Both the position numbers and the translations under genes were made by a program. This document shows positions 5,848 through 48,800 of a DNA stretch of 64,000 bases, piece by piece; positions within the stretch are counted from its first letter, which is position 1; each line of letters starts with the position of its first letter. The notes under the pieces are model-generated. The model searched no databases. It was given only the letters and a program-made list of their open reading frames with translations, and had not been told where the DNA came from. This DNA comes from Candidatus Methanomethylophilaceae archaeon. GTDB lineage: Archaea; Thermoplasmatota; Thermoplasmata; Methanomassiliicoccales; Methanomethylophilaceae. Location: positions 62,001 through 126,000 of the forward strand of contig CALUHR010000009.1 in assembly GCA_944320495.1 (NCBI GenBank). The letters run 5' to 3'.

Positions 5848-6669
5848 TCAGTCGAGCTTGCACCCGTTGAGGTAGGTGTTGCTCTTCCCGGTCTTCCTGA
5901 CGCTGCTCTTGCCGTTCTTGAGCATGAGGAGCCTCTCGAGCCCGAATCCCACGCCCGCCCACGGCTCGTGGACGTCGTGCGCCGGGTCGAGGATGTGGGG
6001 TCCGACGGCTCCGGAGGCGACCTCCGTGCCGTTCACCTCGACGTCGAGCGTCTCCACGTAGACGTCGGACTCCTCCCTGGACAGGGTGTAGTCGAGTCCA
6101 GCGGCCTCCATGACGATGGCGATATACTCCTTCAGGCACTCGGTCGGGTCCCCGTCGGGTCCCATGTCCACCAGGTTCATCATGGTGAACTCCTCGAGGT
6201 GCCTGTAGCTCTTGGATTCCTTCCTGAAGCACTGGCCGATCTCGAAGATCTTGACCGGGCCGTCGGTGTGGTCCCTGAGCCTGCGCATGACGACGTAGAG
6301 GTTGGGCGCCAGCATGGGCCTCAGCGCGCGCTTGTCGTCTATGAAGAAAACCTGCTTGTACAGGTCGTGCTCGGGGGTGATGGTCATCTTCGCAAGCTGC
6401 TGCGTGGAGATGATGGTGGGGGTGCGGACCTCGATGAATCCGTGGGCCACGAGGGCGTCCCTGATCCTGCACTCGAGCTCGGACAGGTCGTGCCTGGTGG
6501 GGGAGGCGATCATGTCGGCGATGGCCGCGTCGTTGGCCGCTTCGGTCTTCGACATGAGCTTGGCGAACTGCCTGTCGCGCTCCGCTGCATCCTGGAAGTC
6601 CAGATCGGAATAGTCGTCGTCGCCGTACTCCATCAGGTGCTGGATCTGGGGGTCCGTGAATCCTGTCAT
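5848..6669 (-). CDS. pylS: PylS, pyrrolysyl-tRNA synthetase (PylSn-lacking type)
   Basis: This enzyme charges tRNA-Pyl with pyrrolysine for insertion at UAG. The 273-residue protein is only the class II catalytic domain: FIEVRTPTII, RALRPMLAPNLY, KIFEIGQCFRKES (motif 2) and GAGFGLERLL-like GVGFGLERLL (motif 3). It has no N-terminal PylSn domain, as in Methanomassiliicoccales. The start at 6669 matches the usual family N-terminus; an in-frame ATG at 6678 would add three residues. It lies 15 nt after tRNA-Pyl and is probably cotranscribed with it. Confidence 0.97.
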   Translation of the reverse strand: MTGFTDPQIQHLMEYGDDDYSDLDFQDAAERDRQFAKLMSKTEAANDAAIADMIASPTRHDLSELECRIRDALVAHGFIEVRTPTIISTQQLAKMTITPEHDLYKQVFFIDDKRALRPMLAPNLYVVMRRLRDHTDGPVKIFEIGQCFRKESKSYRHLEEFTMMNLVDMGPDGDPTECLKEYIAIVMEAAGLDYTLSREESDVYVETLDVEVNGTEVASGAVGPHILDPAHDVHEPWAGVGFGLERLLMLKNGKSSVRKTGKSNTYLNGCKLD

Positions 6670-37275: not shown

Positions 37276-37467
37276 ATGCCGAAGTGGCAGGAGATCGAAT
37301 ATGGGGAATACCGAATGCAACACCGGACGGAGGGGATCCCGATGCCAGCGGTGGACGGGCCTCCCTGTCCGGTATGCGGCAGCAGGGAATGGAACAGCGA
37401 GAAGTGCTCCCGGGGGATCATCATGAACTGCCTGGGATGTCGGTACAGGTATCTGATCCCTATATGA
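37276..37467 (+). CDS. Small zinc-ribbon protein, 63 aa
   Basis: This short frame contains CPVCGSREW and CLGCRYRYL, a plausible four-Cys zinc ribbon, with another Cys between. It is too short for a firm call. There is no clear TATA box or ribosome site, but the cysteine spacing and hydrophilic profile are not what a random GC-rich frame gives. It lies just outside the accessory island. Confidence 0.45.
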   Translation: MPKWQEIEYGEYRMQHRTEGIPMPAVDGPPCPVCGSREWNSEKCSRGIIMNCLGCRYRYLIPI

Positions 37468-37507
37468 GGAACCGGTCCAGGACCGTGATTCCTTCCTATC
37501 AAACCTC

Positions 37508-37517
37508 TATATAAAAA
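37508..37517 (+). promoter_or_regulatory. Strong TATA box at the start of the accessory operon
   Basis: TATATAAAAA followed by GG lies 65-74 nt before the ATG at 37582, implying a leader of about 40 nt. This differs from the leaderless core genes. It also rules out the longer in-frame start at 37522. Confidence 0.7.
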
Positions 37518-37581
37518 GGCGGTGAAGACAAACCTTTCTCTTCACTGCCTTCATTATATTACAAAACAAGTCAACCTCGTC

Positions 37582-38745
37582 ATGCCGTCCTACAAGCAGC
37601 ATGACACGGAAGCCATGGTCTTCAGGGAGTACGCAAGGCCGCTCTGCGGCAGCAGGTTCAATCCCATCTACGGGGAGCCGGAACTCCTGTACTCGATGAT
37701 GATGGGCCTCGCACTGAGGGCGAACCTCGACACCATCGAGACGGTGGATGCCTCCGAGAAGAAGCACAAGGTCAACTGCAACGCTGAGAGGTACTCTGCG
37801 ATATGCAAGAATGTTGCACTTGACCTCTCCGGTAAGTCGAGGACCGGAAACGCCCTGTCTGCCCTGAACAGTCACATCACCGACACGTTCCCATATCTCA
37901 TCTCCTTCCTCCCCCGTTTGGTGAGGGCGTCGATCGGTGTCGAACCAGCGGATTCCTGCAGTCACAAGGTGCTCATCGACCGCATCATGGACCGTGACCC
38001 ACACCTCTTCAGGATGATGCCGGGGGACCTTGCCCACACTGACGTATCCCCCGACGGGATGGGGATCTGCGACTACGTCAGGAGCCCGATGTTCCGCAGA
38101 CTGAGGGAGAACTCGGTCCTCTCGATCGCATTCGACAGACGTCTCGTCCAGATCCCAGACATGCCTGCCGACCACGGCAAGTTCACGCTCAGGTCCGATC
38201 TGGAGGACGCCATCGCGATGGGGGCCATCGTCTCCGGATGCATGGATGTCGGCGACTCGACATCGGACAAGATCCGCGGGAGGTCCATGTCCATCATCAC
38301 CGACTCCGGCCGTCTCGCATCGATGATGATCCCTGACGGGTTCGCCGCAGGGGTCCGTCACGACATCGCGGTGGTCGGGCGCATGGACACCGTACCCGGA
38401 GGTGTGATCGGGAGGGGGAGGCGCATCTCAAGGTTCTGCACCGAGTACAGCATCGAAGGAGGTGCCGTCCTCCGTGAGTTCAACGTGTCACCGGAGAACG
38501 CGACGATCGTCAGGAGGGCGATGGGCGACGGTGCCGTGATCGTCACTGCCAGGGAGATGTCCGGGCTGGATGCGGACATCGTGAGCGCTCTGGGACCGTC
38601 CTACAGGCAGGCCCTGACCACGATGGAGGCAGTCGACATACACCTGATGAGGGGCGATCGCTCCGATGCGGACAGGGTCCTGGTGCCCAGAATCTCCGAA
38701 GCGTTCGGAATCCGTGCGAAGGAGGCTGAGGGATGGAGCCTCTGA
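37582..38745 (+). CDS. Unknown protein, 387 aa (first gene of the accessory operon)
   Basis: I do not recognise this soluble protein. It starts MPSYKQHDTEAMVFREYARP, has a helical N-terminal part and a beta-rich C-terminal half (about 170-360, for example GRSMSIITDSGRLASMMIPD and GGAVLREFNVSPENATIV). There is no P-loop, zinc site or membrane segment. The start at 37582 follows from the TATA position. It overlaps the TBP-like gene by 13 bases, so the two are probably made together and may interact. Confidence 0.7.
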   Translation: MPSYKQHDTEAMVFREYARPLCGSRFNPIYGEPELLYSMMMGLALRANLDTIETVDASEKKHKVNCNAERYSAICKNVALDLSGKSRTGNALSALNSHITDTFPYLISFLPRLVRASIGVEPADSCSHKVLIDRIMDRDPHLFRMMPGDLAHTDVSPDGMGICDYVRSPMFRRLRENSVLSIAFDRRLVQIPDMPADHGKFTLRSDLEDAIAMGAIVSGCMDVGDSTSDKIRGRSMSIITDSGRLASMMIPDGFAAGVRHDIAVVGRMDTVPGGVIGRGRRISRFCTEYSIEGGAVLREFNVSPENATIVRRAMGDGAVIVTAREMSGLDADIVSALGPSYRQALTTMEAVDIHLMRGDRSDADRVLVPRISEAFGIRAKEAEGWSL

Positions 38746-39245
38746 GCGTCACATACTTCGCATCCGGACGTCTCTCCCGCAGGGTGGACATCGGTGTCCT
38801 GGAGATGTACGCCTGCTTCGAGACCGTCCTCAGGCCGAGATGTGCCGTCGCACGGTTCGACGAGGGGAGCATACGCGTGAACGCCTCCGGCTCCGTCTCG
38901 GTGTCGGCCGCTTCCGTCGAGGATGTCGAAGGCATCCTGGGATGGGCGGAGGACGCCCTCTCCCGGGTCCTCGGTCCGACGGAGGTCGTATCGTGGGAAG
39001 TGACCAACGTATCGGCCGTCTCGTCGCTGGGAAGGAGGGTGGACCTCATGGAGGTACACAGGGGACTCCCCCGCGGGGTATCGGACTACGATCCTGAGTA
39101 CCATCCGGCGCTAGTCGTCAGGATGGGGGACGGCCTGGTGGCCAGCGTCTACTCCAACGGTTCAGTCTCGATCACGGGCGGGAGGTCGTTGGAAGACATC
39201 CAAAAGGGATTGGACGGATTGGAGAGAATCGTCTCCACTCTCTAA
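38733..39245 (+). CDS. Divergent TATA-binding-protein-like protein
   Basis: This 170-residue protein appears to contain two TBP-type repeats. The second (about 87-169) is clear: WEVTNVSAVSSLGRRVDL, then YDPEYHPALVVRM, VASVYSNGSVSITGGRSLED and a closing helix. It follows the canonical order of N-V-A, vDL, YdPE-FPgLv-Rm, sGkivcTGakSeeDa. The first repeat (1-83) keeps GSIRVNASGSVSVSAASVEDVE. Phenylalanines that TBP inserts into DNA are replaced (His in YHPAL, Tyr in SVYSNG), so DNA binding may differ or be lost. A Shine-Dalgarno-like GAGGG precedes the ATG. Family recognition is by eye. Confidence 0.68.
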   Translation: MEPLSVTYFASGRLSRRVDIGVLEMYACFETVLRPRCAVARFDEGSIRVNASGSVSVSAASVEDVEGILGWAEDALSRVLGPTEVVSWEVTNVSAVSSLGRRVDLMEVHRGLPRGVSDYDPEYHPALVVRMGDGLVASVYSNGSVSITGGRSLEDIQKGLDGLERIVSTL

Positions 39246-39275: not shown

Positions 39276-42146
39276 ATGGCCTACAGGGGATCCGACGTGA
39301 CGTTGCGTCGGACATTGACGCGGCTTCTCTCGGAGATGGAACCCAGGAGCGTTATGGGTGACAAGGTGGACCTCCCTGTCATGACGCTGGAGGAACTCGT
39401 CGATTACGACGGCGAGTTACGCAGGGTGGGGACGGAGATGCTGAGGAATGCTCCCCAGGATATCGGCCTGCTTCGTCTCCTCGTCAGGATCGCCATCATC
39501 TCACCTCCTAGCGATTATGATGAGGCCATCCATCAGGCGGCGTCGAACATGGCGGACAGCGATTCCCTGGCGTGGACCTACGCCTGTGGTATCGGGACCG
39601 AATCCGACGATGTCAAAGCCATCCGTCTCTTACGGTCGAATAAGGACCTGTCCGCACTGTATTCAGGAATCTGGAACAACTGCGACCTGATCGAGAAGCA
39701 CTCATTCATCCGCAACCGCATCGATATGCCGGACGGAAAGGTCCGGGTAGAGGACCTATTCTCGGCCTACATCAATTCGGACGTCGTATTGGACAGACTG
39801 GTTTACCGGATGGGGATCATGTCATGTCTGACGTCTCACGGGGATCTCGATACGGCTTTCAGAGCGGTATCACTTGTCGAGAGGCTCCACATCGAAGACA
39901 CGGACCTGTTGATGAACATCATTGAATCCATACATCCGGTGACATACGGTCTGCGGGAAGCGACTTACCTGGACGATGAGGAGGTGTTCAAACTCTGCAC
40001 ATTGGAGGATTTCGAAAGGGAACATTCGGCAGAATGGGCTGTATCCACCCTCTCGTCGTGCGGATATCTGAACAAACCTTCGCCGTTCATCGCCATAGGA
40101 CTTCTCAACTCGGACCTGACGGATGCCCAGATGGAACGCATAACGTCGGCTCTGTACTTCTGTCCGGAGAAGGTGGTGATCCAGTGGCTCGACGACGGAG
40201 CGGACCCTTTGGGGCCCACATTGACCAAAGAACGCAGAAGTCTGGATCCGGAGCCAATGGATTCCCGCTCGGCAAATAGCTCGGATGAGGAGTATGTCGA
40301 ATGCATATTGGACTCCAGCAATTTAGAACTGTATTATCAAAACATTCCAGACATATTGGTGAATGCGGAGGGACGGTTCTTTGACGAATATCCCGGCGCC
40401 GATAGATCCGATGATGTGGCAGATGAGGATGGAGGGGATTCATCACTCCGCGAGGATGAGGAGTATGTCGAATGCATATTGGACTCCAGCAATTCAGAAC
40501 TGTACTGTCAAAACATTCCAGACGAACTTGTGGACGAGGAGAGGTTCCTTGACGAATATCCCGACGTCGATGGATCCGATGATGTGGCAGATGAGGATGG
40601 AGGGGATTCATCACTCCGCGAGGAGGAACTCAGGGAGGCGTATTCCGGGGATCCGATAGCTCAGTTCAATGTCGGGGTGACATCCTTGGAGGATTCGAGG
40701 TTCGATGATGCCAAGGCATGGTTCGTGATCTCATCGATACAGGATGTGTCCGACGCACAGTTCAATCTTGCTCTGATGTATCTGGAGGGGAAAGGTATCG
40801 ATGCCGATCCGAGACGCGGTGTAGGATGGATGATGGATTCGGCACTGGGTGGGGACGTGGGCTCGTGCTCCTATCTTGGCTATCTCTACCGCGAGGATGA
40901 CAGTGTGGAGGACGTTGATGGATTGACGAAATCCGATCGTTTTTCCGCAATATGGAATTGGATCGCCGCATCATACGGTGATTCGAACGCCAGTTTCAAT
41001 CTCGCGGTCATGTACGAGTTCGGACTTGGGCTGGAGCAGTCCATGGACAAAGCTGTCACCTGGTACAGGAAGGCGATATCCGATGATGTCCCCGAGGCCA
41101 TGTACAATCTGGGCAACATCTACTATCTGGGGAAAGGCGTCACACAATCCGATGAACGGGCCAGAGCTCTATACGCGAGAGCATCAAGGTTTGGCGATGT
41201 TGATGCCATGTGCAATCTGGCATCAATGGTATGGATGTCTCGTACAGGTCCTAAAGACGAGGAGAAGGCGATTTCCCTATTCGAGAAGGCCGGAGAAATG
41301 GGCTCTGGTCTGGCCTTTCACAACCTGGGCTCGATCTACGACAGCGAAAGCGAACTGCATCATTCCAAAGAGCGTGCTGTCCAGTTCTATTTGAAGGCCA
41401 TCGAACTGGGCGAGATCAATTCGATGATCAATCTGGGGATAATGTACGAACATGGTGACGGGGTGGAGGTGGACCTGTACAAAGCAGCCGATCTGTACAG
41501 AAGGGTTGCTGATGAAGGGGGTCCGGAATGCAACGACTGCAGGAGGCATCTCGCGTTCATGTATATGAGGGGGGATGGGGTGAACCAATCCACCGAGGAC
41601 TGTATACGCCTGTTCGAAGAGGCCGCGGCCTTGGGTGACGAGAGGGCGATGTACAATCTCGGTGCGATATACGACAACGGGGACATCGTCGAGGAATCCA
41701 TCGATACTGCGATCGAGTGGTACGAGAAGGCAATGGAGAACGGGAGCCCAGATGCGGCCAGTGTATTGGGCGACATATATCTCGAAGGCGATGGTGTGGA
41801 TGAATCAGAGGACGCCGCGAACAGATTCTACGACAAAGCCAGAGAGCTGGAGATCGCAGAGACGTTCTACAAACTGGGGAACAGGTCCAGGTCAGAACGC
41901 GATATGGATTCCGCCGAACGGTACTATCGCGTATCAGCATCCAAGGGAAACAAGAGCGCGATCCGCGCACTGGAGGACCTGGGGATCACTTGGAATCAGG
42001 ATCATGTTCCGTCGGAAGCAGATATGCCTCCGGATGCGATCGATGATGCCGACCAGGCCGTTGAGATCGTTCAGAGGCCGGTGATCGCGTCATCCATGAT
42101 GGTTGTAAGACCCACCCTCAGACTGCATGGGAGGATATCCGCATGA
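39276..42146 (+). CDS. Large Sel1-repeat (TPR-like) protein, 956 aa
   Basis: Residues about 1-330 are a helical, repeat-like N-terminal region without clear family motifs. About 337-450 is a tandem duplication of acidic sequence. From about 455 to 915 there are roughly twelve Sel1-like repeats (AMYNLGNIYYLGKGV, NLAVMYEFGLGLEQ, AMYNLGAIYDNGDIVEE and similar). Sel1 proteins are scaffolds for complexes, so this may assemble the products of the island. AAGGAG lies 12 nt before the ATG. Its end overlaps the next gene by ATGA. Base composition is less GC-rich than neighbours. Confidence 0.85.
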   Translation: MAYRGSDVTLRRTLTRLLSEMEPRSVMGDKVDLPVMTLEELVDYDGELRRVGTEMLRNAPQDIGLLRLLVRIAIISPPSDYDEAIHQAASNMADSDSLAWTYACGIGTESDDVKAIRLLRSNKDLSALYSGIWNNCDLIEKHSFIRNRIDMPDGKVRVEDLFSAYINSDVVLDRLVYRMGIMSCLTSHGDLDTAFRAVSLVERLHIEDTDLLMNIIESIHPVTYGLREATYLDDEEVFKLCTLEDFEREHSAEWAVSTLSSCGYLNKPSPFIAIGLLNSDLTDAQMERITSALYFCPEKVVIQWLDDGADPLGPTLTKERRSLDPEPMDSRSANSSDEEYVECILDSSNLELYYQNIPDILVNAEGRFFDEYPGADRSDDVADEDGGDSSLREDEEYVECILDSSNSELYCQNIPDELVDEERFLDEYPDVDGSDDVADEDGGDSSLREEELREAYSGDPIAQFNVGVTSLEDSRFDDAKAWFVISSIQDVSDAQFNLALMYLEGKGIDADPRRGVGWMMDSALGGDVGSCSYLGYLYREDDSVEDVDGLTKSDRFSAIWNWIAASYGDSNASFNLAVMYEFGLGLEQSMDKAVTWYRKAISDDVPEAMYNLGNIYYLGKGVTQSDERARALYARASRFGDVDAMCNLASMVWMSRTGPKDEEKAISLFEKAGEMGSGLAFHNLGSIYDSESELHHSKERAVQFYLKAIELGEINSMINLGIMYEHGDGVEVDLYKAADLYRRVADEGGPECNDCRRHLAFMYMRGDGVNQSTEDCIRLFEEAAALGDERAMYNLGAIYDNGDIVEESIDTAIEWYEKAMENGSPDAASVLGDIYLEGDGVDESEDAANRFYDKARELEIAETFYKLGNRSRSERDMDSAERYYRVSASKGNKSAIRALEDLGITWNQDHVPSEADMPPDAIDDADQAVEIVQRPVIASSMMVVRPTLRLHGRISA
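40284..40621 (+). repeat. In-gene tandem duplication (about 171 and 165 bp)
   Basis: Two near-identical head-to-tail units start at 40284 and 40455, each opening GATGAGGAGTATGTCGAATG and closing with GGAGGGGATTCATCACTCCG. They encode acidic copies beginning DEEYVECILDSSN and ending DEDGGDSSLRE. High DNA identity implies a recent duplication. Confidence 0.85.
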
Positions 42147-43324
42147 GATCCTCCAAGGAGAGATGTTGTGGACGCTCAATCGGCATCATCTATTCGATAC
42201 TATACAGCGATATAGGGGGTGGGATGGACTCGAGAGGAAAAAGGGAGGTGCTGGAGGGACTTTATGGCCCGATGTCCAGATCCATCAGGAAAATGCGGGG
42301 GCTCAGACCGGGCAAAGGGACAGTGGAGCTCCTCGATTTGCCGATGCTGACATTCCTCCAGTGGATCAAGGATTACGGCAACTGCAGTGCGGAATGCAGG
42401 ATCATCCCAAGCAACGACAAGTACGGACTTGCGGCGACGTTCGAAGACATCCAGGTCGATGTTGGGAACTTCAGGAGAAGGGGACAGGCATATGATGACG
42501 ATCAACCTGAGGATGACATCCTCCTTCCAGTATTCGTCGGTGACGAACTCCAACGCTTCTTGAAAGATGACGACGGCCTCCGGTGCCCGGTCCTGCATGG
42601 CCATCCGATGTGCATCGTGGACTTCAGTCAGCTGTTGCCTTACCGTTTCACTGAGGATGCGAAGTCCGGCATATCGCCTCACACCCTTGAACCAGGGACC
42701 ATTTGGATGAGGGCAGAGAGCATCCTGGAAAAGACCCTGAGTCTCATATGGCTGACATCAATGATCGATTTCGATGGAGACCGGGAGTTGCTAAGACTGG
42801 GATGCCCCGTATTGTCATCAAATCCGCCCCCTCCGAAGCAATACGATGTGGAATCCAAGGTGGTGATAATATTCGGGTCCATAGGTAGCTTGGATTCCGA
42901 GTACTACAACCTGAAAGGTAATGACAAGTTCGGTCATCTGGATGCTAACGGACTGAACAACACATACGTCTTCGAACATGATGGCATGCACATCCGTCAT
43001 TACAGGGTCCTGAGCGACGATCCCCGGAATTTGAATAGTCATGATCTCAACGGGAGCATCGGAGAGAGGGTCCTACCAAATATGCTGAAAGATGCCAGAG
43101 ACACCGATGAGATCGGTGTGAAGAGAACAGTCGTCGTCATAGGCCGCACGGACGTCGAGGTTGCGCTGTGGATCATGAAGCAATGCGATTCCCTGGGGCT
43201 GACATACGATACGGCACGTAATCTGGACGAGGGAGGCAAAATGAGCCTGTTCTTCCTCAAGTGCTCTCAACTCTTCGAGAGGGAGAGATCGCTCTCCGGA
43301 GTCGATGGTCCGACCCTTCGATGA
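42143..43324 (+). CDS. Unknown protein, 393 aa
   Basis: I do not recognise it. It is soluble, with a basic N-terminal 60 residues (SKERCCGR, RKMRGLRPGKG), an acidic middle (DDDQPEDDILLPVFVG) and a C-terminal half with two Rossmann-like strands (KVVIIFGSIGS at about 235, KRTVVVIGRTDVEVALWIM at about 330). It has no P-loop. It is translationally coupled to the Sel1 protein (ATGA overlap), so it is likely a partner. It overlaps the convergent metallopeptidase gene by 58 bases. Confidence 0.7.
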   Translation: MRSSKERCCGRSIGIIYSILYSDIGGGMDSRGKREVLEGLYGPMSRSIRKMRGLRPGKGTVELLDLPMLTFLQWIKDYGNCSAECRIIPSNDKYGLAATFEDIQVDVGNFRRRGQAYDDDQPEDDILLPVFVGDELQRFLKDDDGLRCPVLHGHPMCIVDFSQLLPYRFTEDAKSGISPHTLEPGTIWMRAESILEKTLSLIWLTSMIDFDGDRELLRLGCPVLSSNPPPPKQYDVESKVVIIFGSIGSLDSEYYNLKGNDKFGHLDANGLNNTYVFEHDGMHIRHYRVLSDDPRNLNSHDLNGSIGERVLPNMLKDARDTDEIGVKRTVVVIGRTDVEVALWIMKQCDSLGLTYDTARNLDEGGKMSLFFLKCSQLFERERSLSGVDGPTLR

Positions 43325-44526
43325 CCTTCGATCAGACCATCGAAGAAATCTGTTATCGCAAGATCGAGCTCCTCGGATCTCGGGTGCACACTGGATCCCG
43401 TGATGTCCCTCAGGATGTAGGAGGGGCCCGCTCTGATGGTCACATAGATCTCGTACGTCCTCGCGAACACCTCAGAAGGGGAGAGGTAGTACCACAGGTT
43501 CGGGTCGCTGACGAGTCTAGGGAGCACGTCCTTCGAATACAGCGTCTTCACAGGGATGAATGAAGACGATGTCGATGGCCTGTTCATGAAGAAGTCCATT
43601 GCATGTCCGTACTCGTGGACCAGCACGTCCGGCCTGGATGTGTTGACCAGGACGTCCCTCAGCCTCCCGTTGAACTGCCCGATGAAATCTGTTCTGGAGA
43701 ACCTTCTGACCCTCAGATGGAGGTCCGCCCAGGCAGGGGGCCTCGGCAGCACATCCATCGCCTCGAGCCCGATGATGCCCTCGGCCAAAGACCTGATCTC
43801 CGCGGAAGAGACCCTGGGGTCCACATCCAGACCCGTGAAGAATCCGTTCAGTTCCGTCTCATTCAGAAGATTCGTTCCGCGTTCATCTGAGCGGATGTCG
43901 CAGTAGGGGCGCATGGAGGCGGGAACATCCCTCAGGAGTCCTCTCGCACGGCAGTATGCCCTCATCGCGGTGAACAGGAATGCGAACCTGTTCTTCCAGA
44001 GGCCGAACGGTCTGACGGTGCCATCTAAGGTGAAGACCCTCCCGGTCATGTCGTCTGCGGCATCCGAGAAGTATCCGATCTCGCGGGCGGTCCTGGAATC
44101 CGACGTGCGGGACATCTCGAGGATGTCGCGCTGCAGTGCCAGCAGTCCCATTTCAGATGCTATGAGCCCAGGATCAGCCAGTATGCGGTCCCCTTCGGTA
44201 GTGTGCACCGCCCTCCCATGGAGATCGGGGCCGATGGGCACATCCGGGACCAGGAAGATGATGCCGCCATCGGACATCATGAAAAGCAACCTGAGTACGA
44301 TCCCGGGGCGGACGTCATCCCGCTCGATGATGCGGAGGACAGCTGACCGTTCGAGAGACAGGCATTCCGGCTCGGTAGACAGTTCGAGGCCGAACGCATC
44401 CCGCATTCTGGAAGACAGTGCCAGCAGATCCGAGGCGTACGGCGGGAACCCTGCAGCGGCCCATGTCTCGGCCAACGCCTTGAGTCTGGCGGTCGCGTCT
44501 TCGAAGTCATCCATGTCGCATCCCAT
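43267..44526 (-). CDS. HExxH metallopeptidase-like protein (polyvalent-protein type)
   Basis: This 419-residue soluble protein has a zinc-protease motif in DVLVHEYGHAMDFFM (HEYGH, residues 304-308) and a downstream SPSEVFARTYEIYV (351-363), whose Glu would be the third ligand. That motif pair, with an Arg-Thr-Tyr-Glu helix, recalls the metallopeptidase domains of large polyvalent proteins of phages and conjugative elements. The N-terminal 250 residues are helical and unknown. AGGGAGG lies 5 nt before the ATG at 44526. It is the only minus-strand gene of the island and is divergent from the VirD4-like gene. The substrate is unknown. Confidence 0.68.
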   Translation of the reverse strand: MGCDMDDFEDATARLKALAETWAAAGFPPYASDLLALSSRMRDAFGLELSTEPECLSLERSAVLRIIERDDVRPGIVLRLLFMMSDGGIIFLVPDVPIGPDLHGRAVHTTEGDRILADPGLIASEMGLLALQRDILEMSRTSDSRTAREIGYFSDAADDMTGRVFTLDGTVRPFGLWKNRFAFLFTAMRAYCRARGLLRDVPASMRPYCDIRSDERGTNLLNETELNGFFTGLDVDPRVSSAEIRSLAEGIIGLEAMDVLPRPPAWADLHLRVRRFSRTDFIGQFNGRLRDVLVNTSRPDVLVHEYGHAMDFFMNRPSTSSSFIPVKTLYSKDVLPRLVSDPNLWYYLSPSEVFARTYEIYVTIRAGPSYILRDITGSSVHPRSEELDLAITDFFDGLIEGHRRVGPSTPESDLSLSKS

Positions 44527-44615: not shown

Positions 44616-46562
44616 ATGAAAGACAGCAAGGACAGGGTCAGGAAGATGCTCCAGAAGCAGAATGCCAGAATCAAGGAGGAGACGGAGGACACCATCAAGT
44701 TCATCCCCGATCTCAACGAGGGGTTCTGTCCTCCCGTCATGGTCCGCATCTGGGACGACCATGTGATGTTCATCACCGAGCTCAAACCAGATGTTCCAGA
44801 GAAGGCGAGGCAGAAGGTCTCCGGACTGGTGCATGACTTCAACAAGCGTAACTCAGAGGGGGTGCTGGACTACGACATGGAGGATGGCCAGGTATGGGTC
44901 AGGACCTGGGAGCGTGTGGGAAACGGCCGCAGATTCGGGCCGAAGGACCTCGAGTACCATATCCGCCTGGCCAGGGAAATCTCGTCCTCGGTGACGCCGA
45001 AGATATTCGTGGCATGCTCGGGCATCGATGCCGACCCGGATGAGAACGGGGGATGCACCCCTGGAGGGGACGATCCGTCCGTCATGTACGGACGAATCCA
45101 GGGGGATGCCTCCGAGAGTTTCATGAAAGGCAATCCTGGAGGCGGGATCCCCCTCCGTTTCTGCAACGGGAGGCCAGTTTTCGACGGTTCCCCGTACCAT
45201 GGGCTGATCATAGGGTCGACAGGAGCCGGGAAGACGCACTGTCTCATCATCCCGGCATGCCTCTCCATGGCCTGGAACGGGGAGTCGTTCATGGTCGAGG
45301 ACCCGAAGGGCGAGATCGAGGGGATTCTCGGGGGCGAGCTCAGAAGGCTCGGTTACGAGATCCACACCCTGGATGCCCGTGACCCGTACTCAAGCGACAG
45401 GGTAGGTTTCCTTTCCGAGATCTACGACAAGTACCGGTCGGAGGACCGCTTGGAGAGGGACATGGTGCCCAGGTTACTGGAGGACATGGCGCTGGTCCTC
45501 ATGGACAACGGGAACCCGGACGACAAATACTGGGTGGACATGGCGGCCCATCTCTTCGTGGGATGCGCACAGCTCCTCCTCAGGAGATGCTCTCGCGAGG
45601 AGTTCACCCTTGGCAACATCTATTCTCTGAAGACCGTGTTCGAAAACAACGAGCGTCTCACGAAGATGCTCCTGGAGTCCTTGCCCTCCGACGCCCCGGA
45701 GCGGAGGAACATCTCGGGCACAGTCATCAATGCCGACAACACAAGGAGGTGCATCCTATCATTCTTCGACAGGGGGCTGCTGCCTTACATATCGAACCCG
45801 GGTGTGTGCTCCATGTTCTCCAACGGGGATTTCTCGGCCTCCGATGCCGGATTCAGATCGATGGCGGTGTTCCTCAGGATCCCGGATGAGAGCAGGACGT
45901 TCGACGGGATCGTATCGCTGTATGTGAGCATGGTCTACACGGAGATGATCAGGAGGGCGCATGCGGAAGGCGGAGGAAAGCTGCCCGTCAGGATGAACTT
46001 CATCCTCGACGAGCTGGCCAATCTGCCGATGATCCCCGATCTGGACAAGAGGATCTGCATCTCGAGGAGCCGCAACATACGCTTCATGCTGGTCCTCCAG
46101 AGCAAGAGGCAGCTGGAGGCCAGGTACGGTCCCGCGGCCATGGACATCGTGGTGAACAATTGCGGGAACATAGTCTGCATGGCGAACAGGGACCTCTCAC
46201 TCCTGAAGGAGATCTGCGAGATGGCGGGGGTCGACGGTGTGACCCCGAGGTCCATCTCCCGCATGCCTCCCGGAAGGGCTCTGATCATCCATGGAGGGGA
46301 TGAGCCGTACGTGACGGATCTCCCGACATGGGAGGCCTACGGCATCGTCCCCGGTGAAGGGGTTGCCAGGCCCAGGAGGGATCCGGACCCGGAGGGATGC
46401 TTCGATGCAGAGGACTACATCTTCGGTCTCGTCGGAGTCTTCGAGGAGATGGAGGAGGAAGAGGATGATGACGAGCCGGAGGTGTCGTTCGCTTGGATGA
46501 GGGACAACCTGCGGAATATCATTCACGATGCCCTTGTCAACGATGACGAGGAGGATGACTGA
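44616..46562 (+). CDS. VirD4/TraG-like ATPase without membrane helices
   Basis: This 648-residue ATPase has Walker A GLIIGSTGAGKTHCL (199-207), VEDPKGEIEGI, Walker B RMNFILDELANL (459-470) and VLQSKRQLEARYG, the order seen in type IV coupling proteins (VirD4, TraG/TraD). The usual N-terminal transmembrane helices are absent. Instead, residues 1-125 form a soluble alpha/beta domain that looks YbjN/chaperone-like (inference). The C-terminus is highly acidic (EEMEEEEDDDEPE). It probably forms a hexameric motor that moves DNA or protein. A GAGG ribosome site precedes the ATG. Confidence 0.8.
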   Translation: MKDSKDRVRKMLQKQNARIKEETEDTIKFIPDLNEGFCPPVMVRIWDDHVMFITELKPDVPEKARQKVSGLVHDFNKRNSEGVLDYDMEDGQVWVRTWERVGNGRRFGPKDLEYHIRLAREISSSVTPKIFVACSGIDADPDENGGCTPGGDDPSVMYGRIQGDASESFMKGNPGGGIPLRFCNGRPVFDGSPYHGLIIGSTGAGKTHCLIIPACLSMAWNGESFMVEDPKGEIEGILGGELRRLGYEIHTLDARDPYSSDRVGFLSEIYDKYRSEDRLERDMVPRLLEDMALVLMDNGNPDDKYWVDMAAHLFVGCAQLLLRRCSREEFTLGNIYSLKTVFENNERLTKMLLESLPSDAPERRNISGTVINADNTRRCILSFFDRGLLPYISNPGVCSMFSNGDFSASDAGFRSMAVFLRIPDESRTFDGIVSLYVSMVYTEMIRRAHAEGGGKLPVRMNFILDELANLPMIPDLDKRICISRSRNIRFMLVLQSKRQLEARYGPAAMDIVVNNCGNIVCMANRDLSLLKEICEMAGVDGVTPRSISRMPPGRALIIHGGDEPYVTDLPTWEAYGIVPGEGVARPRRDPDPEGCFDAEDYIFGLVGVFEEMEEEEDDDEPEVSFAWMRDNLRNIIHDALVNDDEEDD

Positions 46563-46662: not shown

Positions 46663-47265
46663 ATGGCTAGCAGAAGCAAGCGCAACGGAAACAGGAGACA
46701 GAACCGCAGAAAGAGCGGACGCGGGGGAGGATGCTCCCCCGACATGTACCAGAGAGGGCTCGACGAGATCAAGGCGATGATGGTGAGCAGCTTCACAGAC
46801 ATCCGCGAGACGATCGGCTCCGCTGGAAACAGCTCCGGAGGAGTGGTGACCGTCGAGGAGGAAATCATCCGCCGCCTCATCGGAATCGAGAGGAAGATGG
46901 ACTGCCACAGGGATGACGCAGCCGCAGGGGCAGTGCGCGGAGAGGTCCTGAAGGTCGCAGAGATGGTCGAGAGGGCGTACCCTCTCCTCGATGCGATCGG
47001 AGGCGACCCCGAGACCGACAGGAAGATCGCCATGAACACTGCCCTGATGCTCCGCAACTCCGTAAGGAGGATGGGGGTCGAATCCAGGGGATGCTCTGCC
47101 GGCGACGCATTCGACCCCTCCATGATGGAGGCGGTATCCGTCATCGACACCGACGACGAGGCCCTCGAGGGCAGGGTCGCGGACGTCGTCACCAGTGCCG
47201 CCTACTGGCTGGACGGGGAGCTCATCATGCCTCAGGCCGTGTCCGTCTACAGGAGGTGCCAGTGA
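46663..47265 (+). CDS. GrpE-like nucleotide-exchange factor
   Basis: This 200-residue protein has a very basic N-terminus (SRSKRNGNRRQNRRKSGRG), a central helical region (about 60-130) and a C-terminal beta domain. FDPSMMEAVSVIDTDD and then LDGELIMPQAVSVYRR fit the GrpE head (FDPxxHEAVxxVxTDD ... LxGRVLRPAxVxV). It lies immediately before, and is coupled to, an Hsp70-like gene, as expected for a dedicated exchange factor. GGAG lies 10 nt before the ATG. It is divergent from housekeeping GrpE, so it is likely specialised. Confidence 0.7.
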   Translation: MASRSKRNGNRRQNRRKSGRGGGCSPDMYQRGLDEIKAMMVSSFTDIRETIGSAGNSSGGVVTVEEEIIRRLIGIERKMDCHRDDAAAGAVRGEVLKVAEMVERAYPLLDAIGGDPETDRKIAMNTALMLRNSVRRMGVESRGCSAGDAFDPSMMEAVSVIDTDDEALEGRVADVVTSAAYWLDGELIMPQAVSVYRRCQ

Positions 47266-48800
47266 TGTCCGAGGAGAAGCAGTCAGTCGTAATGTTCGTG
47301 GGCGTGGACGTCGGCACCACCCAGACAGTGGTCAGGGTCATCGGTGCATACGACACCGAACCCCAGCAGGTCAATCTCACCGGAAGGACCGCCCCCATGG
47401 CTTCCGCCATCTACATCGCTCCCGACGGTACCATGCTCTACGGGGACCAGGCGAAGCGCAACGCGGTGACCCAGCCCGAGAGGGTCATCCAGCTCTTCAA
47501 GCAGTTCCTCAGGACGAACAAGAGCTGGGATATCGATGGCAAGACATACACCCCTGCCGATGGGTACACGCTCATCATCCGCAAGGTCAGAGAGATCCTC
47601 GAGAGCATGTTCCCCGGTACGGATTTCCAGTTCGTCCCGACCGTACCTGCCAACTACGGCACTCCCGAGAGGGTCAAGGTCACCGATGCCTGCACCGCCG
47701 CCGGCGTCAACGTGATCGCCCTGGTCAACGAGCCCACCGCCGCCGCGCTGTGGTACTTCAGGAACGACTCCAGGCTCATCGGCTCCACCATCGCAGTGGT
47801 GGATCTCGGCGGGGGGACCCTCGACATCACACTGATGAGGGCCGTCAACAACGACGGCCAGCTGGACTTCGAGGTCCTTGCTTCCAAGGGTGTCGAGAAC
47901 CTCGGCGGCGAGAGGTGGACGGCCGACGGAGTCTACAGGCAGATGCTCGAGAAGTACTGCGCAGAGGCCGGCGTGACACCCGAGGACGTCAAGGCCGACA
48001 CCAGGTCCGACATGACCCTCAGGGCCCTGGCCGAGGAGTGCAAGATCGAGCTCTCCCAGGGTTCTACGTCCACCGTCATCGTGCTCTCCATCAGGCCGGA
48101 CGTCGCCGTGACCTTCGAGATGACCCAGCAGGAGTTCGACGAGAACACCAGGGATCTGCTCGCCAACGTCCTGGAGACCCTCGGAAGGGCCATCGATTCC
48201 TCAAGGGAGCGCGACCCCAGCTTCGGACTGCCCGACAGCGTGATCCTCGCAGGCGGTGCCTGCATGATGCCGCAGATCAGGAACGGCATCATCGAGGCAT
48301 ACCCGGAGCTGGAGGGGAGGGTGAGCGTCAAGGACCCCTTCGTGGCCATAGCGAGCGGGGCGGCCCTCTACGGGGCCCTGGGGCTCACCGTGAAGGACAG
48401 ACTGACCAAGTCCTACGGATGCATCGCGCTTGACAACAGGACCGAGAAGGAGAAGGTCTACAACCACCTGAGGGCAGGGGACGAGATCCCCTCCAGCGTC
48501 GAGCGCAGGTACTACACCGTCGCCGACGGGCAGCTCGCCATCCTGGACCGCATCATCGAGAACGAGTGCGAGGGAGCGGTGCTCAGCCCCAACGCCAAGG
48601 GGGCCAGGTGCATCGGCAAGATGAGGCTCGAGCTGCCTCCGGGACTCCCGAAGGGAACGCCCATCGACACCGTGTTCGACACCGACGATGGTGCCGTGCT
48701 CAGAGTGAGGAGCACCTGTGCGGGCAAGGAGGTCTCCACGACGCTGGAGATCTCGACGAAGCCGGTCAGCGAGAAGGCCGTCGACCCGTTCAGCATCTGA
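47265..48800 (+). CDS. Hsp70-like ATPase, short form
   Basis: This 511-residue protein contains the whole actin-like ATPase domain of Hsp70: VGVDVGTTQTVVRV (phosphate 1), VPANYGTPERVKVTDAC, NEPTAAAL, VVDLGGGTLDITLM (phosphate 2) and VILAGGACMMPQIRNGI (adenosine). After about residue 375 only some 135 residues remain, a reduced substrate-binding beta domain with no helical lid. AGGAGGTG just upstream is a strong ribosome site, and the start overlaps the grpE-like stop (TGATG). No dnaJ is adjacent. It is probably a specialised chaperone of the island. Confidence 0.88.
   Translation: MSEEKQSVVMFVGVDVGTTQTVVRVIGAYDTEPQQVNLTGRTAPMASAIYIAPDGTMLYGDQAKRNAVTQPERVIQLFKQFLRTNKSWDIDGKTYTPADGYTLIIRKVREILESMFPGTDFQFVPTVPANYGTPERVKVTDACTAAGVNVIALVNEPTAAALWYFRNDSRLIGSTIAVVDLGGGTLDITLMRAVNNDGQLDFEVLASKGVENLGGERWTADGVYRQMLEKYCAEAGVTPEDVKADTRSDMTLRALAEECKIELSQGSTSTVIVLSIRPDVAVTFEMTQQEFDENTRDLLANVLETLGRAIDSSRERDPSFGLPDSVILAGGACMMPQIRNGIIEAYPELEGRVSVKDPFVAIASGAALYGALGLTVKDRLTKSYGCIALDNRTEKEKVYNHLRAGDEIPSSVERRYYTVADGQLAILDRIIENECEGAVLSPNAKGARCIGKMRLELPPGLPKGTPIDTVFDTDDGAVLRVRSTCAGKEVSTTLEISTKPVSEKAVDPFSI

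Follow-up and report, generated by a model that had tools for sequence, protein, structure and literature searches.

The 170-residue product of a gene in a 64,000-nucleotide stretch of archaeal DNA (the whole stretch that was analysed, hereafter the window) and two relatives from the same genus are accessory TBP-like proteins that, judged by their alignment to TBP, have lost DNA contacts but retained the acidic residue pair that contacts TFB. The window protein is encoded between a partner gene, which it overlaps, and a gene for a Sel1-repeat scaffold. The features of the locus are as follows.

37507..37519, plus strand: strong archaeal-type TATA-box-like element (CTATATAAAAAGG), presumed cassette promoter, read from the sequence
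37582..38745, plus strand: partner protein, 387 residues from the ATG at 37582, with HMM-detected relatives at L057:4788-5834 and L060:7944-8972
38733..39245, plus strand: TBP-like protein, 170 residues, identified by Pfam TBP and by an AlphaFold2 model with Foldseek
38733..38978, plus strand: degenerate N-lobe (residues 1–82), predicted from the topology of the AlphaFold2 fold, pLDDT 35–59
38991..39242, plus strand: C-lobe, a significant TBP repeat (residues 87–170), from sequence scores, pLDDT 73–88
39087..39098, plus strand: YDPE (residues 119–122) of loop L3, with the acidic TFB-contact positions C.L3.2 and C.L3.4, from the alignment and the positions of PMC7221094
39102..39104, plus strand: His124, replacing the first DNA-inserting Phe of the C-lobe, from the alignment
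39150..39152, plus strand: Tyr140, replacing the second DNA-inserting Phe of the C-lobe, from the alignment
39276..42146, plus strand: Sel1-repeat scaffold, 956 residues, Pfam Sel1 E 1.5e-62
42143..43324, plus strand: 393-residue protein, its gene joined to the Sel1 gene by an ATGA overlap

Fold and contact residues of the TBP-like protein

The reading frame of the TBP-like protein is intact (ATG at 38733 to TAA at 39243–39245), its GC3 of 0.80 matches that of the neighbouring genes, and the encoded protein is acidic (pI 4.85). Pfam PF00352 matches residues 89–168 only (52.7 bits, cut-off 22.9, E 3.8e-14), the NCBIfam TBP subfamily models match residues 38–168 (6.8e-14), and the M. jannaschii TBP matches at 8.5e-12; PADLOC and PHROGs gave no match. 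Against a half-TBP HMM trained on the canonical TBPs of relatives, the C-terminal half scores 40.7 bits (shuffle maximum 6.6, n = 2000), which bears out the TBP repeat that the first-pass annotation of this DNA had read there. The N-terminal half, taken by itself, scores 0.7 bits with the same HMM, a value reached by 87 of 2000 shuffles and hence not significant, and is marginal against an HMM made from the N-halves of its two relatives (2 of 2000 shuffles). Because of these shuffle-controlled scores, the TBP homology of the C-terminal half is firm, and the claim that the N-terminal half is a degraded copy of the repeat rests on the predicted fold, which supports it.

The AlphaFold2 model (m84a487c48cc0) was calculated without templates from an alignment of the three accessory sequences only, with canonical TBPs left out. 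It has a pLDDT of 63.6 (73–88 in the blocks of the C-lobe, 35–59 in the N-lobe) and a pTM of 0.58, and its strands and helices follow the order of the TBP repeat twice, minus the first helix of the N-lobe. In a Foldseek comparison with the PDB, every one of the best 44 matches of the model is a TBP or a chain that contains one (E 2.4e-9 to 8e-7, TM (query) 0.5–0.66), and the alignments extend over ~180 columns, i.e. both lobes. The structure predicted for the window protein thus has the TBP fold. Topology and Foldseek alignments together suggest a divergent bilobed, possibly saddle-like arrangement, in which the N-lobe is modelled at low local confidence and its assignment is of moderate confidence. 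Most matches to viral structures (BFVD) are to TBPs from large DNA viruses. Like the window protein, these are TBP-fold mimics outside the core machinery, but their hosts are eukaryotic and the window protein has no match on archaeal viral contigs; large DNA viruses with TBP-like proteins usually encode their own TFIIB (PMC7221094).

A TBP acting as a TATA factor carries two pairs of minor-groove Phe, and the window protein does not have both. In its C-lobe they are replaced by His124 and Tyr140, so the alignment confirms the His and Tyr substitutions proposed at first reading; the corresponding residues are G/N and S/N in the two relatives (G026 and G025, respectively). In the N-lobe, Phe is absent from the first position, and at the second the automatic alignment places a Phe and a by-eye motif alignment an Asn. 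The S1 Val of the C-lobe is also replaced, which leaves S1 Asn and the CTG Thr as the sole DNA contacts among the C-lobe positions checked.

The acids at C.L3.2 and C.L3.4 contact TFIIB/TFB, the E284R/E286R substitutions weaken transcription, and bacterial TBP lobes do not conserve these acids (PMC7221094). In the aligned window protein they correspond to D120 and E122, and to D/E and E/E in the relatives (loops YDPE, YDPE and YEPE). Across the three C-lobes the acids are kept in six of six cases versus three of 15 for five DNA-contact positions (Fisher p 0.0015), a statistic that lends support but is not proof because it comes from only three sequences (n = 3) and classes picked post hoc, after the sequences had been read. 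The N-lobes of all three proteins lack the acids at the equivalent positions; therefore, those of the C-lobes are not retained for the fold alone. Compared to a canonical archaeal TBP (PF00352), the window protein shares the predicted two-repeat fold, the C-lobe YxPE loop and the length of 170–182 residues, but it lacks the DNA-inserting Phe and most other DNA contacts, its N-lobe is degenerate, and its gene, overlapped by that of a partner, belongs to a sporadic cassette.

The cassette and its recurrence

The TATA-box-like element precedes the probable start codon of the partner (ATG at 37582) by ~63 nt; if the GTG at 37522 were the start, the partner would be 407 residues long. The partner has no match in Pfam, NCBIfam, PHROG or PADLOC, and its predicted structure (pLDDT 33) is uninformative. 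The start of the TBP-like gene overlaps the end of the partner gene by 13 nt, which supports the earlier proposal of cotranscription for the upstream gene. Cotranscription of the whole cassette is unproven because the Sel1 gene, which follows after a 30-nt gap, may have its own promoter, a TTAAATT element ~23 nt before its ATG. The setting of the TBP-like gene in an accessory operon is supported. A score of 7.0 bits (shuffle maximum 3.0) between the 393-residue protein and a 333-residue protein of related loci is suggestive of a relationship between the two sequences. Just upstream of the partner gene is a 63-residue ORF (37276-37467, plus strand) with a CxxC-17-CxxC zinc ribbon that faintly resembles the Rrn7/TFIIB ribbon, at a score below the cut-off. 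A 419-residue orphan (43267-44526, minus strand), convergent with the cassette, carries a zincin-like HEYGHAMD motif at residue 304.

Overlapping TBP-like and partner genes are found in three genomes of one genus, namely that of the window host and two rumen metagenome-assembled genomes (MAGs): G025 (L057/L079, JAEEJP010000106.1), where the two genes overlap by ATGA, and G026 (L060/L080, JAFYAH010000001.1), where the overlap is 13 nt. Between the two MAGs, the partners share 32% identity (E 1e-34). With an HMM built from these two and excluding the window sequence, the window partner scores 16.2 bits against a shuffle maximum of 4.0 (n = 1000), and all three are therefore taken as homologous. 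In two overlapping sets, 147 genomes from the order and 400 from the class, no further genome with the pair was found, and direct scans of IMG/VR viral contigs yielded no relative of either protein. A scan of genome contigs with the window TBP-like protein alone gave nothing, and the partner alignment retrieved the two MAG records. The three accessory TBP-like sequences are ~25% identical and sit on very long branches.

In G025, an LRR/Sel-type gene divergently adjoins the pair, and in G026 the same kind of gene adjoins an additional copy of the pair that has decayed. The first ~340 residues of the window Sel1 protein score 35.1 bits with an HMM of the L057/L088 proteins (shuffle maximum 3.5, n = 1000). 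A homologue of the Sel1 N-terminal region thus adjoins both the G025 pair and the decayed G026 pair, so that the pair and its Sel1-type neighbour form an accessory cassette that recurs, is sporadic in distribution and in some cases is decaying.

In-frame TAG codons occur in the G025 and G026 copies. The TBP-like frame of G025 (L057:5831-6367, plus strand) contains two and no other stop, and homology resumes after each. Pyrrolysine is possible at these codons because the genus encodes pyrrolysyl-tRNA synthetase (PylS); in the window its gene lies at about 5854-6522 on the minus strand. Three LRR/Sel-type genes (L057:2493-4538, L088:8063-10031 and L088 at about 15.4-17.5 kb, all on the minus strand) likewise have an in-frame TAG, at an equivalent place (codons 390, 388 and 371 of the stretches read), the protein sequence being conserved before and after it; that of G025 additionally has a TAA further on.

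Other candidates were set aside. The extra TBP of another genome (G029:C7; L056:8540-9142, plus strand), with a degenerate N-lobe and an intact C-lobe, is a different divergent TBP that canonical HMMs score best; its gene overlaps a long transposase-like ORF on the opposite strand. Weak PF00352 matches in G029:C27 and G026:C55 were rejected, being located in V/A-type ATPase loci.

The first-pass annotation had also spoken of element DNA, a notion that found no support: no integrase, tRNA or replication gene was found in the cassette locus, and there is no tRNA anywhere in the window. Among the genes scanned with Pfam and NCBIfam, a VirD4/TraG-like ATPase (44616-46562, plus strand), which has an N-terminal extension of ~150 residues, is the one conjugation gene recognised. 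PADLOC recognised no defence gene among the cassette neighbours, with only a weak mad8 match of this ATPase, and no Rfam RNA was found at 36–49 kb of the window. The ATPase is present in 11 of 102 genomes of the family, often close to Sel1 genes, and in several of them it is preceded by a separate gene of ~150–180 codons. GrpE-like and Hsp70-like genes (46663-48800, plus strand) lie immediately 3' of it in the window. A single VirD4–TBP element was rejected because the TBP-like/partner pair is missing from the VirD4 loci of other genomes.

Accessory TBPs beside archaeal defence genes

Among plasmid proteins, the window protein best matches a haloarchaeal TbpC whose gene lies directly 3' of a BREX-5 pglZ. 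The loss of the N-lobe Phe in TbpC has been described, its function being unknown and the protein considered either nonfunctional or very specialised (PMC4230888). In a survey of 21 plasmid TBP loci from one collection (in two more records no TBP was annotated), one analyst first labelled each locus from its annotation as defence-adjacent or not, a defence-adjacent locus being one next to genes of BREX, type I R-M, methylase-helicase or DUF1156 methylase type, and the residues were scored only then. All 13 defence-adjacent haloarchaeal TBPs (L089, L091, L094, L097-L100, L102-L104, L108, L110 and L112) lack both N-lobe Phe and keep the C-lobe Phe and the TFB-contact acids, and the eight TBPs beside other genes retain all four Phe (N-lobe loss in 13/13 vs 0/8, p 4.9e-6). 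The association persists after removal of sequences more than 65% identical (9 vs 5, p 5e-4). One example is the H. salinarum TBP at L097:9001-9546, which follows a methylase-helicase pair and has no N-lobe Phe pair. In Haloquadratum (L112), a SprT-type metalloprotease also adjoins the defence TBP.

The same signature, N-lobe Phe lost and C-lobe Phe kept, is found in two Methanomethylophilaceae TBP paralogues that adjoin hsdR in type I R-M loci (L059:7871-8389, plus strand, and L058:8599-9237, minus strand), the only such paralogues among 147 genomes of the order. They are 54% identical, come from hosts of different genera and each have a DUF262-like protein beside them. With the window protein they share the host family, the loss of the N-lobe Phe and an acidic C-lobe loop (YEPE), but they keep the C-lobe Phe, and their neighbours are HsdRMS and the DUF262-like protein.

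TbpC resembles the window protein in being an accessory paralogue on accessory DNA with a disabled N-lobe and retained TFB-contact acids. It differs in keeping both C-lobe Phe, which the window protein has lost, and in adjoining, in the cases read, BREX, R-M or methylase-helicase genes; no known DNA-defence system was recognised within two genes of the window protein. Conflict systems of the TOTE/TALON type that contain a TBP are also known, with a TPR-CSD protein plus TBP (PMC12458937). As in these, a TBP-type domain and a TPR-like (Sel1) protein share an accessory cassette in the window, but the cassette lacks a cold-shock/OB domain, YprA helicase or nuclease: Pfam gives Sel1 repeats and no CSD/OB or nuclease domain.

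In a tree, a single branch (78/97; in 76% of bootstraps) has all 15 defence TBPs on the same side, a grouping subject to long-branch caveats. An HMM of defence TBPs gives the window protein a score of 52.8, compared to 37.8 and 35.9 with canonical HMMs, and all three accessory proteins score higher with it than with canonical HMMs; the divergent control TBP of G029 (L056) scores better with the canonical HMM. This preference is only suggestive of an alliance between accessory and defence TBPs in sequence because a more diverse training set makes an HMM more permissive. The survey suggests that altered TBPs regularly belong to the anti-virus operons of archaea, and the defence link may explain the orphan haloarchaeal TbpC. 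A broader proposal, on balance rather doubtful, is that a dedicated lineage of accessory TBPs, DNA-disabled in the N-lobe and with a TFB-binding C-lobe, travels with DNA-modification defence, TbpC being a defence component and the window protein an extreme, fully DNA-blind branch that acts on TFB and has acquired a Sel1 scaffold and another partner. The literature searched, with incomplete coverage, contained no report of a link between TBP and defence.

Candidate roles of the window protein

The first-pass annotation had suggested redirection of host transcription, marking of element DNA or reuse as a protein-binding module. Protein binding is favoured among these, with TFB as the best-supported candidate target, and marking of DNA ranks lowest, given that all three family members have lost DNA contacts. 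A single canonical TBP (G000:C3:143978-144499) and a single TFB are encoded in the host genome (1.77 Mb, 14 contigs), both outside the cassette, so that TFB would be a shared target. From its PylS gene and from its congeners, rumen MAGs labelled Methanomassiliicoccaceae/Methanomethylophilaceae, this methanogenic host is assigned to the Methanomassiliicoccales.

For the window cassette we infer binding of TFB and of the partner, a regulatory effect and any role in defence. Our preferred reading, put forward tentatively and at somewhat less than an even chance, is a DNA-blind TBP paralogue that docks on TFB and/or its partner and lets the cassette throttle or redirect initiation. Having lost TATA-box insertion and kept YDPE in the C-terminal stirrup loop for TFB contact, the protein would be produced together with its partner from the overlapping genes of a sporadic cassette, usually with a Sel1/LRR scaffold, and would dock on the single TFB of the host without any bending of DNA, either as a decoy or as an adaptor that is recruited. 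The time or place of docking would be set by the partner and perhaps also by the Sel1 scaffold, and the cassette would thereby throttle or redirect TFB-dependent initiation, plausibly in a stress or anti-virus response. Docking on TFB is supported by the recurrence, in archaeal defence operons, of TBPs with a disabled N-lobe and intact TFB contacts. If true, archaea deploy reduced versions of a universal transcription factor in accessory, probably defensive, cassettes, haloarchaeal TbpC gains a concrete testable role within a BREX, R-M or methylase-helicase operon, and natural proteins separate DNA bending from TFB docking, two TBP activities that are normally inseparable.

Alternatively, the TBP fold could be reused purely as a module for protein contacts, holding the partner, perhaps together with the Sel1 scaffold, and touching neither TFB nor the transcription machinery. 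The absence of DNA contacts from all three members, the overlap of the partner gene in all three genomes and the proximity of Sel1/LRR scaffold genes agree with such a module, which we consider possible though somewhat unlikely, but the acidic TFB-contact loop, kept in the C-lobes and lost from the N-lobes, is left unexplained by it. That the gene is a decaying, functionless TBP paralogue under relaxed selection appears improbable: the very long branches, the decayed second copy in G026, the in-frame TAGs of the G025 and G026 copies and the presence in three genomes only point towards decay, but the window ORF is intact with a coding-type GC3 (0.80), gene order and overlap are conserved, a TBP fold is predicted, YxPE is intact in three sequences ~25% identical, and the stops in the G025 TBP-like gene are exclusively TAG in a genus that encodes PylS. 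Most improbable is an alternative promoter-recognition factor of altered DNA specificity that drives cassette or element genes, for which the TBP fold and the accessory TBPs of archaeal plasmids, differing in DNA-contact residues, can be cited, but against which stand the replacement of both C-lobe Phe and S1 Val, with S1 Asn and the CTG Thr alone left, the acidity of the protein (pI 4.85) and the ordinary strong TATA box of the cassette, which the host TBP could use.
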